From: Armatimonadota bacterium
GTDB lineage: Bacteria > Sysuimicrobiota > Sysuimicrobiia > Sysuimicrobiales > Kaftiobacteriaceae
Direction: 5' to 3'
DNA: 64,000 nucleotides
NCBI GenBank assembly: GCA_031459765.1
Contig: JAVKHY010000001.1
Location: 1 to 64,000, forward strand
Shown here: positions 1-23,831 of the stretch, in pieces
Layout: every line of letters begins with the position of its first letter
Position numbering within the stretch: position 1 is the first letter of the stretch
Position numbers and translations under genes: made by a program
The notes under the pieces: generated by a model
What the model was told of the DNA's origin: nothing
The model's database searches: none
The model's input: only the letters and a program-made list of their open reading frames with translations

Positions 1-1367
1 TCGTCGAGCGGGATGAGGCGCGGCGAGGCCCCCGTGCGTTCGCGGATCGCGTCCTCGCAGGACTGCAACCCGCACCAGCCGACCTTGACGAACCCCTTGA
101 TCCGGTCGATGGCCTCCGCCAGCTCGTCCAGCGTCGCCGCCTGCGTGGTGTGCGTATCGCGGTAGGCCTTCCCGCGGGTAAAGAGTTCGGCCTGGATCTC
201 GTCCAGAATCCGCCCGATCCTCTCTTCCAGCCCGTCCAGCGGCAGGGGCTCTTTGGCCCCTCCCGTGCGCCGGCTCAGCACGACCTGATGGTTCGCCACG
301 TCGCGCGGACCGATCTCCAGACGGACCGGCACCCCCCGCAGCTCCCATTCGTTGAATTTCCACCCCGCGGTATAGGCGTCGCGGTCGTCCAGTTTGACCC
401 GGAAGCGGGCGCTCAGCCGGGCGGCCAGCGCCTTCGCCGCCGGGATCACCCGGGCGTCGTCGCGGCCGAGGATCGGCACGATGACCACCTGGAACGGCGC
501 GATCCGCGGGGGCAGGACCAACCCTTTGTCGTCGCCGTGAGCCATGATCAACGAGCCGATCAGGCGCGTCGTCACGGCCCAGGAGGTGGACCAGATGTAC
601 TTCTCCTGGTTGTCGCGGTCCAGGAATTTCACGTTGAACGCCTTGGCGAAGTTCTGGCCCAGGAAGTGGGAGGTGCCGGCCTGGATGGCCTGGCCGTCCG
701 GCATCAAGGCTTCCAGCGTGTAGGTGTTGTCCGCGCCGGCGAAGCGCTCGCTGGGCGGCTTCACCCCCACCAGGACCGGGATGGCCAGCACCTCTTCGAG
801 GAGTTCGCGGTAGATGCCGAGGATCAACCGGCACTCGGCGTCGGCCTCTTCGCTCGTCCGGTGCGCGGTGTGCCCCTCGTGCCAGAGGAACTCCGCCGTG
901 CGCAGGAACAGCCGCGTGGCCTTCTCCCAGCGGACGACGCTGTTCCACTGCAGGAGCAGGATGGGCAGGTCGCGGTAGGACTGGATCCACTTGGCGTACA
1001 TGGGCAGGATGATCGCCTCGGAAGTCGGCCGCACCGCCAGACGCTCGCTCAGCTCCTCCTCACCGCCGTGGGTCACCCAGGCCACCTGCGGGGCGAAACC
1101 CTGGACGTGCTCCGCCTCCTTCTTCAGCAGGCTCTCCGGGATGAGCAACGGGAAGTAGGCCGTGACGTGACCCGTCTCCTTGAAGCGGCGGTCCAGCCAG
1201 GTCTGGATGCCCTCCCAGATGGCGTAGCCGTAGGGCCGGATGGCCATCGACCCGCGCACCGGCGTGTAGTCCGCCAGTTCCGCCCGCAGGGCGACCTGCG
1301 TGTACCACTCGCTGAAGTTCTCGGATTTCCTAAGCAGGGCCTGAACGCTCTCGCGCTCCTGCACCAC
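1..1367 (-). CDS. proS: Prolyl-tRNA synthetase, archaeal/eukaryotic-like type, 3'-truncated by window edge
   Basis: Class II aminoacyl-tRNA synthetase that charges tRNA-Pro in the cytosol. About 455 codons are visible and the 3' end runs off the window. The N-terminal half carries class II signatures: VRPTSEAIILPMYAKWI, then VRWEKATRLFLRTAEFLWHE, then the proline-pocket segment GTSHFLGQNFAKAF. A C-terminal anticodon-binding domain follows (VVIVPILGRDDARV). This order, without the long editing insertion of the Escherichia coli enzyme, is the ProS type 3 layout. The GTG start has AGGAGG 7 nt upstream; a GTG one codon later is an alternative. A T-box leader lies directly upstream, so expression should respond to uncharged tRNA-Pro. 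Confidence 0.93.
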   Translation of the reverse strand, partial: MVQERESVQALLRKSENFSEWYTQVALRAELADYTPVRGSMAIRPYGYAIWEGIQTWLDRRFKETGHVTAYFPLLIPESLLKKEAEHVQGFAPQVAWVTHGGEEELSERLAVRPTSEAIILPMYAKWIQSYRDLPILLLQWNSVVRWEKATRLFLRTAEFLWHEGHTAHRTSEEADAECRLILGIYRELLEEVLAIPVLVGVKPPSERFAGADNTYTLEALMPDGQAIQAGTSHFLGQNFAKAFNVKFLDRDNQEKYIWSTSWAVTTRLIGSLIMAHGDDKGLVLPPRIAPFQVVIVPILGRDDARVIPAAKALAARLSARFRVKLDDRDAYTAGWKFNEWELRGVPVRLEIGPRDVANHQVVLSRRTGGAKEPLPLDGLEERIGRILDEIQAELFTRGKAYRDTHTTQAATLDELAEAIDRIKGFVKVGWCGLQSCEDAIRERTGASPRLIPLD

Positions 1368-6413: not shown

Positions 6414-6446
6414 GAAAACAGCCCCTACCCGAACCGGGTAGAGGCT
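6414..6446 (-). terminator. Expression-platform terminator of fluoride riboswitch 2
   Basis: On the minus strand AGCCTCTACCCG pairs with CGGGTAGGGGCT over 12 bp with a 3-nt loop, followed by GTTTTCG. The 5' arm re-uses the pseudoknot strand AGCCTC of the aptamer. Confidence 0.87.
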
Positions 6447-6490
6447 ATCAGCCGGGACGTCCGGCGGTTCAGGCGAGCCTCATCGCCTCC
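6438..6490 (-). promoter_or_regulatory. Fluoride riboswitch 2 (crcB motif)
   Basis: Read on the minus strand: GGCGATGAGGCTCGCC, then TGAAC, a GCCGG-ACGTC-CCGGC type hairpin, and CTGATAGCCTCTAC. GAGGCT and AGCCTC pair as the family pseudoknot, and the pocket segments GATG and CTGAT are intact. It is closer to the crcB-motif consensus than the first copy. It lies between a consensus promoter and the antiporter gene, about 100 nt upstream of the start codon, and should turn the operon on with fluoride. Confidence 0.92.
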
Positions 6491-6496
6491 GGACTG

Positions 6497-18507: not shown

Positions 18508-20298
18508 CTACCTAGCAGTTGCCTGCGCCGACGCCGAATCCTCCCGCGCCTCGCCCTTCCACAAGCGCCGCATCTCGGGGGAGCGCCGGAGCAGATCCTC
18601 GAGCGCCCCTTCCGCCTCGACGCGTCCGTCCTTCAGCACGACGATCTGGTCGGCGCGGCGAAGCGCCACGCGGCGGTGGCTGACCACCAGGCAGGTGACG
18701 TCCTCGAGGGCGAAGAGGCGCTCCCACAGCGTGCGCTCGGTCTCCACGTCCACGGCGCTGCTGAGGTCGTCGATCACCAACAGCTCCGGCTTGCGCACGA
18801 ACATGCGCGCCGCCGCGGTGCGCTGGATCTGGCCGCCGGAGAGCTTCACCCCGCGCGGGCCGACCACCGTCTCCAGGCCCTTCTCCAGCATCTCGACGTC
18901 GCGCTCCATGACCGCGGACCACACCGCCCCCGGCAGATCCGCGCGGGCCGCGGGGAGTCCGAAGAGCACGTTGTCCCGGAGGGCCTCGCTGAAGAGGCGC
19001 GGCACCTGGGGAATGTACGCCGCCTGCGGCATCACGAAGAACTCGGCGGGACGCTCCACGCGTCTGCCGTTCCAGTGGATCTCGCCGGCGTCTTTGGGCA
19101 GCAGGCCGATGAGCACGCGCACCAGCGTGCTCTTCCCGGAACCGATGCGCCCGGTGACCACCGTGAAGGACCCGCGGCGCAGGGTGAAGCTGACGTCCTG
19201 GATCCCCCGCCCCGTCGCCGGATCGAGATAGGTCAACCCTTGCACCTCCAGGCGCTCCAGTCGATCCTCGTCGATCCGCTCGGGGACCGGGGCCTCCGGG
19301 AGCGCGCCCGTCAGGTGAAGGGGTTTGTGCTCGACGAGGCGCGACGGCGCTTCGCCCTGCAGCAGCTCGACCAGGCGCTGCACGGAGACGCCGGCCTGCC
19401 GGTACCGCGCCGAGAAGTTGCCGATGAGGGTCATGCCCTCGGTGACCAGCCCCAGGTAGAAGACAAAGAGGGCGAAGTCACCGACCGTGAACGCACCGGT
19501 GCGGATGGACCGGCCGGCCAGGAGCAGGATGAGGCCGGTGCCCAGGTTGATCGAGCTCCAGAACACGGCGCCCAGCAGCTCGGTCAGCAGGCTGTCTTTG
19601 AGCGAGACGCGGCGGCGCTCCTCGTTCAGCACGCGGAAGCGGTCGATGACGTGCGCCTCGGCCACGGCCACCTTGACCGCCTGCACCGCCCCGAACATCT
19701 CGCCGATCAGGTCGGTGACCCGCCCCGCCGCCTCCCGCGCCGCCCGCCGGTAGCGGAGGATGCGCTGGCGCAGAAGGGCCACGACGGCGACGATGGCCAC
19801 GAGCGGCAGCAGCACCACGGTCGTGATGAAGGGCTCGATCCGGAACATGATCGCCGCGCCGACGAATCCGGAAAGGACGATCCCCACGCCGTCCACCGTC
19901 ATCTCGATCAGCTTCAGCAGCTCATCGACGTCGTCGCGGAAGCGGCTCATCGCCTCGCCCGGCGAGTCGGGCAGCGCCTTCGCCCCGGGCCGGCTGAGAA
20001 TGCTCTCCAGGAGGTTGCGCCGCAGCAGCCCGGCCCGGTGGAAGAAGAACGTGGCCCAGGCGTCGACGCCGAGGATGTTGATCGCCACGCGTCCCAGGGC
20101 CACGCCGACCAGCAGGGCGAGCAGGCTCCACAGTCCCCATCCCGCGGTCTCCCCGCCGGTGATCGCGTTGAAGACGGCGCGGGTGACCAGCCCCATCAGG
20201 AGCGGCGTCAGCCAGAAGGCGGTCCACAGCACCATGTTCCAGGCGTAGGCCCACGGCTGATACGTCAGCAATCGCCAGAGCACGCGCCACGTGCTCAT
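18508..20298 (-). CDS. Heterodimeric ABC exporter subunit 2 (degenerate Walker B)
   Basis: A protein of 596 residues with an N-terminal six-TM domain and a C-terminal ATPase. Walker A is GRIGSGKST near residue 390, the signature is the canonical LSGGQ, and Walker B is [12 protein letters not shown], where the catalytic Glu is Asp. It is therefore the partner that supplies a good signature but a weak nucleotide site. ATG 20298 overlaps the stop of subunit 1 as ATGA; the longer in-frame ORF upstream is shadow. Probable multidrug or lipid export; see the leader-ORF region at 22.1 kb. Confidence 0.92.
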
Positions 20299-22031
20299 GC
20301 CAGCATCTCTTCCAGCCCGGTGCGCAGCAGCGAGGCGAACCGTGAGGCCGGATCGGCTGCCAGCTGCGCCCGCGGTCCGTGCTCGAGGACCGCGCCGTCT
20401 TCGAGAATGAGGATCTCGTCCGCCCGCTGCACCGTGCCCAGGCGGTGGGCGATGACGACCGCGGTGCGGCCGCGGAGCAGCGCGGCGACCGCCCGCTCCA
20501 CCAGCTGCTCGGTGGCCGGGTCGAGCCGCGAGGAAGCCTCGTCCAGGATCACCAGGCCCGGGTCCTTGAAGAACACGCGGGCGAAAGCCAGCAGCTGCGC
20601 CTCGCCGGCGGACAGCGACCGGGGGCCGATCGGGGTATCCAGACCCTGCGGAAGGGTTTCCATCCATTCCTGCAGGCCGAGTTCGCGCAGCACGGCGATG
20701 ATCTGGGCTTCCGAGATACGCGGATTGAAGAAGGTCAGGTTGTCGCGCACCGAGGCGTGGAACAGCTGCACGTCCTGCGTGACCAGGCCCACCCGGTTGC
20801 GCAGATCATCGAGCGGCACGTCGCGGACGTCGATTCCGCCCAACCGCACCGCCCCCGACGTCGGATCATAGAAGCGCACGAACAGCCTGCCGATCGTGGT
20901 CTTGCCGCTCCCCGTCCGGCCGAGCAGGCCGAGCACCCGTCCCGGCTCCAGACGAAAGCTGACATCCCGCAGGACAAGCTCGTCCTCGACGTAGCCGAAG
21001 GAGACCTGATCCGCTTCCACCGTCAGGGCCCCGCCGGGCAGCCGGAGCGCCCCGTCTTGCGTCGCGCTCCGCAGCCCGAGCAGATCGCCCACGCGGGAGA
21101 TGCTGGCGCTGGCCCGCTGCAGCTCCTGCATCTGCCGCGTGATCTGCTCCAGCGGCCGCCGCAGCATCTCCGTGTAATGGAAGAACAGGTACACGGTCCC
21201 CACCGTGATCAGCCCCCGGCGGAGCAACCACGCCCCCATCCCGAAGGCCAGGGCGTTGCCCACGGCCAGCAGCACCGCGGTCGTCGCCCACATCACCGTC
21301 CCCCGCAGCCACGCCCGACGGGATTTCTCGAGCTGGTTGCGCAGGGCCTCGGACAGCCGGCGGAGCACGTAGGGTACGGCGCCGCTGGCCCGGATATCCT
21401 CTGTGCCGGAGAGGCGCTCCTCGAGGAAGCCGAGCAGAATGGCCCCGGCCTGACGGGACTCCTTGAAGTATGGAATCGCCGCCTCCATCAGCCTGCGCAG
21501 CAGGAGCAACGTCGTCACGGTAAAGGCGGTGTAGACGAGCCCGACGCGCCAGTCCGCGCGGTAGAGCAGCACCAGGATGCCCGCGAGCAGCACGGCGTTG
21601 CCCAGGACCTTGATCACGAATTGCGAGAAGAAACCCGAGAGCTGCGTCACGTCGCCGTCCACGCGCTCGATCATCTCGCCCGGCGTTTTCGCGTTGTGGA
21701 ACGGCAGGTCGAGCCGCAGGCAGTGCAGGGCCAAATCCTCCCGCACCTTGTTGGTCGCCGTCCAGCCGACGTTCTCGCTGGCGTAGACCGACAGGGCGGA
21801 GATGAGGTGTCCGGTGAGCGCCACGCCCAGGAACACGCCGGCCAGACGCGCCAGGACCTCCGGCGACGCGCCGCCGCGGGCCAGGTCGATAAAGCGGGCC
21901 AGGATCTGCGGCATGAGCAGCTGCAGCGCAATGCTGCCGAACAGCAGCGCCGCGAGCAGGGCGACCCGCATCCTCTGCGGCTGCAGGTAGCTCAGCAGAA
22001 ACCGGCGATGTTGAGCGTATGAGACGGCCAT
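20295..22031 (-). CDS. Heterodimeric ABC exporter subunit 1 (degenerate signature)
   Basis: A protein of 578 residues with a six-TM domain and an ATPase. Walker A is GRTGSGKTT near residue 375, Walker B is [12 protein letters not shown] with the catalytic Glu, but the signature is SLSAGEAQ instead of LSGGQ. Combined with subunit 2 this gives one consensus and one degenerate ATP site, the arrangement of BmrCD, LmrCD and TM287/288. ATG 22031 follows GGGAG. Transcription passes through a 200-nt leader with a short ORF and a terminator hairpin. Confidence 0.93.
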
Positions 22032-22080: not shown

Positions 22081-22140
22081 GAAATGCAAACGGCCACGGG
22101 AACCGGCTCGTCCCCGTGGCCGCCACGACAGCGGTGGCGG
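22081..22140 (-). terminator. Attenuator-like tandem hairpins upstream of the ABC exporter
   Basis: On the minus strand CCGCCAC (22140-22134) pairs with GTGGCGG (22126-22120). A second 10-bp stem, CGGCCACGGG (22122-22113) with CCCGTGGCCG (22100-22091), follows and ends in TTTGCATTTC. The two stems share the CGG at 22122-22120, so they compete. The T-run is weak. The layout, short ORF then competing hairpins then exporter genes, resembles ribosome-mediated attenuation. Confidence 0.6.
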
Positions 22141-22185
22141 TTACTTACAGGTCACGAGGCGCACCCGGTCGGGTTCGCGCGCCAT
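22141..22185 (-). CDS. Alternative leader ORF of the ABC exporter operon
   Basis: A 14-residue ORF in another frame, MAREPDRVRLVTCK, ending at 22141 directly before the first hairpin. Its AGGA site is weaker than that of the 19-residue ORF. Either or both may be translated. Confidence 0.35.
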   Translation of the reverse strand: MAREPDRVRLVTCK

Positions 22186-22204
22186 CTTGGCGAATCCTGA
22201 TCAT
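22145..22204 (-). CDS. Leader ORF of the ABC exporter operon
   Basis: A 19-residue ORF (MIRIRQDG, then ARTRPGAPRDL) with a strong GGGAGGT site 6 nt before the ATG. It ends at the foot of the first attenuator hairpin. Leader peptides with this position control the BmrCD exporter in Bacillus by antibiotic-induced ribosome pausing. An overlapping alternative ORF is listed separately. Confidence 0.55.
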   Translation of the reverse strand: MIRIRQDGARTRPGAPRDL

Positions 22205-22310
22205 GGGCGCACCTCCCGTCTGTGGCAAAGTGTAACAGCAGACAGAGCGTAACAGTATGTGTACCAGAAGGGGCGTCGCCCGTCAACGGCGGAAGCGCGT
22301 CCCACCCCAG

Positions 22311-23831
22311 TCAGGGGACCGGGGCCTCCACCCAGATGGGCGTGCTCCACGCCCACTGATGGTTCGTCTGGCGCACCCGGGCGTAGTACCAGTCCCGATC
22401 GCCCTCCCCCTCGTGCTCCAGCGCAAAGGATCCCGAGAACATCCCGCGGCCCACCGCGCGGCCGAACCGACAGGCCGGCGTGTGGAACCCGCCGAGATAG
22501 TGGACGATGGCAGCCTCGCGGAGCGCGGCGAGCGGGACCACAACCTCCCGTCCGTTGATCCGACCGGCAATCCTGGTGGACTCGTCACCGTCGACGCTGA
22601 GACTGACGGCCTGGATGCCCGGCGTCACTGGATTGGGGTTGCCCCAGGTCGTGGTCTCGAGCAGGATCTGGTTCCCTCGGCGTTCCCACGCACTCAGGAC
22701 CGGGCCCCGGTCGCCGCCCTCTTCCCTGGGAGAGACGATGTCGTCCCCGCGCAGCCGCGGCTCGACGTCCAGCAGGCGGCCGCCTTCGACGGCGAGCTCC
22801 ACATGCCACCGGACGGGGACGGCCCGATCGCCCCACCCTAGTTCCAGCGTCACCTTCCAGGGACCGGACGCTCCGCGGTCCGGGGTAGGGGTCCAGCGAT
22901 GAAGCAGTCTGCCGTTGTGCACGACGTCCACGTAGTCGATCGCGTCACCGGCTTCCACGGACACCTGGATGTGCCGCCGGCGCGCGAACCGCAGGACCGT
23001 CCCCATCGGGTGTCCGTTGACGGCGAAGGCCAGCACGATGCGGTCGCCGGTCAGCGCATATGTCCGGCGCCGCGTCAGGGCGTCCCAGACGGCGTGGCGC
23101 GTCAGTTCCGCGGCCCAGACCGCGGCCCGACCCCAGCCGTGGCTGCCCGGATAGGCGGCGTGATGGTCGGTGGAGCCGATGACGCCGAACACCTTTCCCA
23201 ACCGCAGGCCGTGCTGCATGGTACCCTGGCCGTCGCGCGGGCCCATGGTGTGGAGATAGGGATAGGGTGCGTGGTCTCCTTCGGCGACACCATGCATGGA
23301 GACGATTTCCACCACGGGCGAGAATTCCGGCGTAAAGGCCGCCCAGTCGATCCCCCGGTAGCCGGCCCGATACCCGATATGATGCGGAATGATGAGAGCC
23401 GCCCGGCCCGAGGCCGCCAGGCGCCGCAGCGCAGCCCGCACCTCCTCCAGGTCGGCCGCCTCGACGATCTCCCCGTCGCCGTCCCGGTAGTAGACATTGT
23501 GGTCGCCGTACCGCAGAGAGTGCCATTCGTAGCTGAGGAACGTAACGAAGCGTCCCTCGACATTGGCCGCGTTGGTCACCTCGCGCAGGTGGGGCCATCG
23601 CGCCGCGGCCCGCTGGAAGCCGCGCCTGTGATAGTCCACCGTGTCGGCCAGGCGCGTCTCGGACACGGGCATGTCCGGCCACGCGGCGTGGGCCGTGACG
23701 CTGGCGAAATCCAGCTGCAGCCGGGCGTTGGCGTAGGCGTCCTCGGGCGTACCGCGGCCGTATCCGACGTCGCAGTGGCTGTGGAGATCCCCGAAGTACG
23801 CCGTCAACCCCGCGTAGCCCGGTAGGGTCAC
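22311..23831 (-). CDS. CehA/McbA-like PHP-fold metallohydrolase
   Basis: A protein of 506 residues. Metal-binding motifs of the PHP fold are seen as YFGDLHSHCDVGYG at the N-terminus, VTAHAAW near residue 46, IIPHHIGY near residue 150 and GSTDHHAAYPG near residue 220. A beta-rich C-terminal half follows. This matches DUF3604/CehA-like hydrolases; the substrate is unknown. GTG start with GGAGGG upstream, overlapping as GTGA the stop of an oxidoreductase fragment, which shows it was once second in an operon. Confidence 0.8.
   Translation of the reverse strand: MTLPGYAGLTAYFGDLHSHCDVGYGRGTPEDAYANARLQLDFASVTAHAAWPDMPVSETRLADTVDYHRRGFQRAAARWPHLREVTNAANVEGRFVTFLSYEWHSLRYGDHNVYYRDGDGEIVEAADLEEVRAALRRLAASGRAALIIPHHIGYRAGYRGIDWAAFTPEFSPVVEIVSMHGVAEGDHAPYPYLHTMGPRDGQGTMQHGLRLGKVFGVIGSTDHHAAYPGSHGWGRAAVWAAELTRHAVWDALTRRRTYALTGDRIVLAFAVNGHPMGTVLRFARRRHIQVSVEAGDAIDYVDVVHNGRLLHRWTPTPDRGASGPWKVTLELGWGDRAVPVRWHVELAVEGGRLLDVEPRLRGDDIVSPREEGGDRGPVLSAWERRGNQILLETTTWGNPNPVTPGIQAVSLSVDGDESTRIAGRINGREVVVPLAALREAAIVHYLGGFHTPACRFGRAVGRGMFSGSFALEHEGEGDRDWYYARVRQTNHQWAWSTPIWVEAPVP

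Follow-up and report, generated by a model that had tools for sequence, protein, structure and literature searches.

In Bacillus subtilis, an initiating ribosome on the three-codon upstream open reading frame (uORF) of vmlR blocks an anti-antiterminator; according to the available part of that report, initiation on the uORF is essential, its residues are interchangeable, and the leader senses ribosomes held at initiation (PMC9226507). The bmrB leader of bmrCD is reported to place a terminator under uORF control upstream of a heterodimeric multidrug ABC exporter, with three alternative structures proposed, and in this it resembles the leader analysed here. However, the bmrB terminator lies within a 53-codon ORF behind an AbrB-controlled promoter (PMC4191407), whereas here the leader ORF (ORF1) stops 22 nt before the hairpin. 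Thus, the parallel with bmrCD drawn in a preliminary description of this DNA holds for a uORF and a hairpin before an exporter, but not for a terminator within the ORF.

The same description had envisaged ribosome-mediated attenuation. The present study supports this idea through a conserved uORF-plus-hairpin anatomy, but not through a conserved peptide that could mediate specific arrest. The leader is real and conserved, a variant of known attenuation, and most likely ribosome-mediated.

Results

The leader and its exporter

The window (the whole 64,000-nucleotide stretch of DNA analysed) carries the locus on its minus strand, in a 2.8-Mb genome, between a gene of the same strand, whose end lies at 22311, and the two genes of an ABC exporter. 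Its features are as follows.

22258..22286, minus strand: probable promoter, −35 TTGACG at 22286..22281, 17-nt spacer, weak −10 TACACA at 22263..22258
22211..22217, minus strand: Shine-Dalgarno (SD) sequence GGGAGGT of leader ORF1
22205..22215, minus strand: segment 1, SD arm GAGGTGCGCCC of helix P1 in minimum-energy (MFE) folds, proposed anti-antiterminator
22145..22204, minus strand: leader ORF1, MIRIRQDGARTRPGAPRDL, ATG 22204 to TAA 22145, 19 codons
22141..22185, minus strand: ORF2, MAREPDRVRLVTCK, overlapping ORF1
22156..22166, minus strand: 3' arm of P1, GGGTGCGCCTC (anti-SD), at the end of ORF1
22153..22159, minus strand: segment 2, CCTCGTG, common to P1 (CCTC) and the proposed antiterminator
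22120..22140, minus strand: stem 1 (P2), CCGCCAC 22140..22134 with GTGGCGG 22126..22120, taking the CGG foot of the terminator
22112..22118, minus strand: segment 3, CACGGGG, complement of segment 2
22091..22122, minus strand: candidate terminator hairpin (stem 2), CGGCCACGGG(G)..CCCGTGGCCG, arms 22122..22113 and 22100..22091
22081..22090, minus strand: T-rich run TTTGCATTTC, 3' of the hairpin
20295..22031, minus strand: exporter gene 1, 578 aa, start ATG 22031, Walker B LVILDEAS, signature LSAGE
18508..20298, minus strand: exporter gene 2, 596 aa, Walker B LLVIDDLS, signature LSGGQ

The GGGAGGT, the short ORFs and the two stems sharing three bases (22122..22120) all lie, on the minus strand, where the preliminary description had placed them. 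Its interval, 22081-22204, encloses elements of the leader but is too short, since the leader also comprises the SD arm at 22217..22205 and, further out, the promoter with its −35 at 22286..22281. ORF1 starts 7 nt past GGAGG, and both ORFs stop immediately before stem 1. Folding of the leader beat all 200 dinucleotide shuffles (z −3.66); for a longer 194-nt stretch, z was −2.56 and 2 of 200 shuffles were equally good. The GUGA internal loop was weighed as a possible K-turn, and this reading was abandoned.

Gene 1 combines the canonical Walker B glutamate with a diverged LSAGE signature, and gene 2 combines IDD with LSGGQ. By the usual roles of these Walker B and signature residues, the sequences indicate a heterodimer-like exporter built of two half-transporters, one of its ATP sites being degenerate. 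The BmrCD type assigned earlier stands in this broad sense only, and BmrCD is not the closest solved bacterial relative of the pair: gene 1 prefers TM_0288 (269.8 bits against 217.1 for YheH/BmrD), and YheI ranks first for gene 2 only, by a narrow margin (155.9 bits against 154.5 for chain B of 5mkk/6raf). Judged by these scores, the exporter is not specially close to BmrCD. Elsewhere in the window, at 6432-6496 on the minus strand, a fluoride riboswitch (RF01734) scored 43.2 bits.

A proposed position-sensing attenuator

The exporter leader is best read, and probably rightly so, as a cis-acting transcription attenuator that would read the position of the leader ribosome. Segment 1 would be the SD arm of the uORF and segment 2 its last codons; the terminator stem would consist of segments 3 and 4. 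With the SD free of ribosomes, 1:2 (P1) would form, segment 2 would be occupied and 3:4 would terminate transcription (OFF). A ribosome reaching the stop would cover segment 2, and 3:4 would again form (OFF). Were a ribosome held on the start or on the codons right after it, segment 1 would be covered, segment 2 would pair with 3, and the exporter would be transcribed (ON). An inhibitor of the first peptide bonds could cause such holding, and P2, where present, may assist the ON state by taking the foot of the terminator. On this model the uORF is presumably translated, and antibiotics may be the signal. We regard ribosome-mediated attenuation in general as likely, and its initiation-sensing version as plausible and somewhat doubtful.

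Conservation within the phylum

Orthologues of the exporter, 65-87% identical, were found in 7 other genomes among the 60 relatives searched; the remaining matches, among those listed, reached at most 37% identity or covered only about 200 residues. The leader is present in all seven readable loci (window, G002, G003, G006, G008, G009 and G040), which span four genera and two families; the contig of G007 begins inside the leader and shows the end of the hairpin. These leader-bearing relatives are MAGs named Armatimonadetes bacterium or ANGP1, the latter placed in Candidatus Sysuimicrobiota (NCBI).

Kept in 7/7 loci are the SD (GGAGG or GAAGG), a short ORF, a GYGCGCCUYGUGA-like block, the stops and the CGGCCACGGG/CCCGTGGCCG hairpin. 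The block ends in CTCGTGA or CTTGTGA (CTCGTG/CTTGTG in 7/7). Every locus (L002, L003, L004, L005, L006, L008 and L009) has stops in two different frames, separated by 4 or 7 nt, an apparent regularity. The start codon lies 7 nt past GGAGG/GAAGG in six of the seven, the exception being G040, where the spacing between SD and ATG is 12 nt and the ORF ends early. The body of the uORF drifts; SD, start spacing, CUCGUGA block, stops and hairpin arms are constant. Neither the short ORF nor the hairpin is missing from any of the seven loci, and the earlier proposal, which hinged on the conservation of one or the other, stands on this point.

A sigma-70-like pattern (TTGACN-16..19-TANNNT) lies 50-52 nt upstream of the SD in 5/7 loci. 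The window locus and G040 did not match it; the window promoter retains TTGACG with a poor −10.

A covariance model, R1, built from five of the seven leaders (the insert-bearing G008 and G009 left out), was run on 43 genomes of the phylum and at E ≤ 0.01 matched 8; seven of the matches lie at this exporter, and the remaining one, in G038, is weak (0.0019). At E ≤ 0.1 it matched 13 of 43, the extra ones being partial or weak. Within the phylum, the leader is near-exclusively associated with this exporter. R1 matched nothing in the genomes of L058, L059, L060 and L118, and the relatives L058 and L059 (56% identity) had no such leader by R1 or by R2, the Bacilli model described below. The leader pattern had no match in viral contigs. 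A c-di-GMP-I-GGC riboswitch was noted near the G040 exporter (L129:2102-2186, minus strand).

Helix P1

In MFE folds, P1 comprises 11 bp, two of them G-U, between the SD arm GAGGUGCGCCC and GGGUGCGCCUC at the end of ORF1; across the seven loci its longest uninterrupted helix measures 7-10 bp within a 12-nt SD stretch. It beat shuffles in the window (p 0.0165), G002 (0.0085) and G040 (0.029), and was not above them in G006 (0.146), G003 (0.395), G008 (0.113) and G009 (0.380). Since GC-rich sequence pairs easily, the case for P1 rests on conservation. Changes at one pair (A-U, G-U, G-C) and at another (C-G, U-G) are compatible with pairing; covariation in alignment A2 was not above column shuffles (288-335 of 500). 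The preliminary description had taken the two stems for the main competitors. They overlap by just three bases and coexist in the MFE structures of the window and G002, and the conserved partner, which it had missed, is the SD:ORF-end helix P1.

In the leaders of G008 and G009, an insert of about 77 bp separates P1 from segment 2 (L004:3362-3444; equivalent position in L009). Its ends form long inverted repeats, and CTCGT-like repeats flank it. The insert duplicates GAGTGCGCCT, and P1 could therefore form with either copy. Its reading as a repeated element was rejected, as it is single-copy in each of the two of seven genomes that carry it.

The candidate terminator hairpin and stem 1

Both 10-nt arms of the hairpin are identical in 7/7 loci by exact search, and 10/10 pairs are invariant in alignment A2. 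A terminator scan of the leader region was not above chance (1 found against 1.8 expected in shuffles), and the T run is weak. Thus, it is the conservation of the hairpin, not the scan, that lifts the terminator call; the earlier impression of a terminator-like second stem gains support on the former ground and not on the latter. The hairpin is a putative terminator of transcription. Its reading as a genome-wide repeat was rejected: GGCCACGG..CCGTGGCC occurs at three places in the source genome, one being this leader. In L004, L005, L008 and L009, a second similar hairpin (GACCACGG..CCGTGGCC or GGCCGCGGG..CCCGCGGCC) precedes the exporter, giving the appearance of tandem terminators.

A hairpin taking the CGG foot (stem 1 or one with an equivalent 3' arm) was supported in the window (p 0.021), G002 (0.003), G009 (0.04) and G008 (0.011), and unsupported in G006, G003 and G040. 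With a simulated ribosome at the start codon, the terminator probability fell to 0.38-0.56 in G008, G009 and G040, and stayed at 0.89-0.91 in the window (0.90), G002, G006 and G003.

The proposed antiterminator

By its sequence, segment 2 (CCUCGUG) could pair either with the SD or with CACGGGG in the 5' arm of the terminator. The 2:3 complementarity extends over 6-7 nt in 7/7 loci and is strong in G040 only, where 12 bp join GUGCGCCUCGUG with CACGGGGCGUAC. There, before the terminator loop is made, the 2:3 probability rises from 0.00 to 0.93 with a ribosome over the start. Once the whole loop is transcribed it is 1.00 even without a ribosome, so the clean switch exists at one transcript length only. 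In the window RNA, 2:3 was not favoured (P ≤ 0.22) in any state or length tried. Shuffling of the terminator loop indicated that the loop helps 2:3 in G040 (p 0.009), G002 (0.011) and G008 (0.034); the effect was weak in the window (0.108) and G009 (0.103), and failed in G006 (0.762) and G003 (0.708). Combined over four lineages, p was 0.057 or 0.001, depending on the genus representatives chosen. A 2:3 antiterminator may form, and these results, together with those for stem 1 and the start-codon ribosome across loci, make it the least certain step of the proposed mechanism.

A leader without any antiterminator has to be weighed, in which P1 does no more than restrict translation of the uORF and the second hairpin serves RNA processing or is related to Rho. 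The better supported structures, P1 and the second hairpin, are the ones that it needs, and the window results for 2:3 and the weak T run fit it. However, T-rich runs follow the hairpin in the window, G002 and G003, a second hairpin with a T-rich end is found in G006, G008 and G009, and the Bacilli counterparts mostly end in T runs. We consider this explanation rather improbable.

The uORF peptide and other explanations

Outside the segment-2 block, the leader peptide is not conserved in the seven loci (e.g., MIRIRQDGARTRPGAPRDL, MRRIRPGDAARTRPGAPRDS, MFMLLPVVSALRLRAPCDL, MGNQRSMGQTLLGAPRDA). The peptide conservation in relatives that the preliminary description had suggested looking for is thus absent, and a specific arrest peptide becomes unlikely. 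Furthermore, an ORF resembling ORF2 exists in G002 only; the G040 counterpart has a GTG start, and none was found at that place in G006, G003, G008 and G009. The suggestion of ORF2 as an alternative sensor therefore finds no support.

The same observations bear on an attenuator of the hflXr/erm R-x-R kind, in which a drug-bound ribosome would stall at a peptide motif in ORF1 or ORF2. R-x-R does occur in ORF1 of the window, G002, G006 and G040 (4/7), and attenuation of hflXr reportedly involves an ORF of 14 aa that contains RLR (PMC6310831). Yet in these leaders the motif sits at differing codons, is absent from G003, G008 and G009, and is presumably easy to obtain in Arg-rich ORFs of GC-rich DNA; nor do the peptides align beyond the segment-2 block. 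Such stalling is unlikely here.

The invariant hairpin arms and the conserved block could also be a binding site, as in a riboswitch or protein-binding attenuator, or the SD hairpin could respond to temperature, the ORF being incidental in each case. No Rfam family matched at the leader in the window or its relatives, and the retention of the start 7 nt past the SD in 6/7 loci argues for a functional ORF, which leaves such explanations with little probability. That the hairpin is a constitutive terminator of the upstream gene followed by chance ORFs is very improbable: in the window the preceding gene does end nearby on the same strand (22311), but the leader travels with the exporter while the same-strand frames before it differ between lineages (window; G002; G003/G008/G009; G040).

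Leaders of like plan in Bacilli

A scan with the exporter protein across 84,980 species gave 108 relatives; among the 80 retained, 70 are from Bacilli (44-49% identity). Eleven Bacilli loci, judged by eye, have a leader of like plan: an SD GGAGGUCGCC and a uORF, then GGCUGACC and a hairpin that spans the stop, and finally GCUCCAGGCGG..CGCCUGGAG with T after it. A covariance model, R2, built from nine of the eleven first seen, matched 12 of 74 loci tested (the 70 Bacilli loci and 4 others, one further locus being left aside). At E ≤ 0.001 it also had matches in two wider sets, the Cohnella family (20 of 394 genomes) and the Alicyclobacillus order (9 of 59). Among 31 distinct R2 loci, an exporter homologue (42-46% identity) lies downstream in 26/26 stronger matches, nine of which had built R2, and in none of the five weakest (Cohnella family). 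The 26 leave out the weak L153-L157, L144 and a second match in L143. The weak matches in L153, L154 and L155 (about 1501-1636) show hairpins such as AGCCCTGGCGCTTGCGCCAGGGCTTTG, lack an exporter homologue and are perhaps other attenuators.

In an alignment fitted to P1 and the terminator, 97.1% of their cells are paired (against 18-50% when slid), and their 10 two-sided changes (2 in P1, 8 in the terminator) exceed those of any of 500 shuffles. For the antiterminator, to which the alignment was not fitted, 82.5% are paired (against 34-50% slid) and five pairs show two-sided changes, a marginal result against column shuffles, of which 33-153 of 500 reach the observed values. In simulations of 24 leaders (L163 and L164 omitted), the mean antiterminator probability was 0.14 without a ribosome, 0.26 with one at the start, 0.12 at codon 10 and 0.00 at the stop; blocking the start raised it in 8 of 24 leaders and lowered it in 2.

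In five leaders (L141, L150, L158, L159 and L162), the ORF passes the block in another frame, which favours a role of the RNA over that of the peptide. Most of the others keep an ADxxVRM-like C-terminus, and in those a peptide role is possible. The uORFs of L133-L162 have a AUAGGCUUG-like block shortly upstream of GGCUGACC, kept although the frame differs in some. Separately, 23 of the 70 Bacilli loci (L064-L131), from Paenibacillus, have a different uORF of about 22-31 codons ahead of the same exporter. It ends in DSS or DSA right before the stop (e.g., MVNICSTYQLWAGNADFNVIMYDSS), its conserved C-terminus looks like an arrest peptide, and these loci do not overlap the 12 of R2 type.

Discussion

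In searches both ways, R1 did not match the Bacilli leaders and R2 did not match those of the phylum. Direct homology thus finds no support from the covariance models, and the likeness is one of plan. We tentatively suggest a cross-phylum architecture for one exporter family, in which the SD of the uORF is itself a switch strand and start-held ribosomes would be sensed whatever the peptide. In this still conjectural reading, 16S rRNA pairing, anti-antiterminator, antiterminator and terminator would be chained by complementarity. Its span, equally provisional, would cover Sysuimicrobiota-type MAGs and, with other sequence, Paenibacillaceae and Alicyclobacillales.

If true, antibiotic-sensing attenuation would extend to an uncultured phylum, and also to an exporter family that occurs in many Bacilli as well as in Chloroflexi-labelled MAGs. 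The design would be a simple one: with the SD built into the switch, start-held ribosomes would be sensed and no conserved peptide would be needed. Named Bacilli in culture are among those whose leader is similar in plan, which makes the attenuation model testable.

We found no description of such an exporter leader in the open-licence PMC literature, and the uORF's own SD as a switch strand is not described for vmlR, bmrB or hflXr in the available parts of their reports (PMC9226507, PMC4191407, PMC6310831). The rli80/hflXr leader of Listeria, as far as the accessible text describes it, similarly has a short ORF within the anti-antiterminator region and antibiotic-dependent read-through, but differs in its RLR arrest motif and target gene (PMC6310831). 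The nearest tested system is vmlR, which, in the portion of the report at hand, encodes an ABC-F protein, whereas the leader here precedes an exporter (PMC9226507). Furthermore, the vmlR uORF has three codons and its SD is single-stranded before SL-1, as far as that portion describes it, whereas the exporter leader has the SD arm in its first helix and a uORF of about 19 codons. Nevertheless, the two share the order of anti-antiterminator, antiterminator and terminator, and vmlR, as partially available, provides the precedent for sensing start-held ribosomes with an indifferent uORF sequence (PMC9226507).
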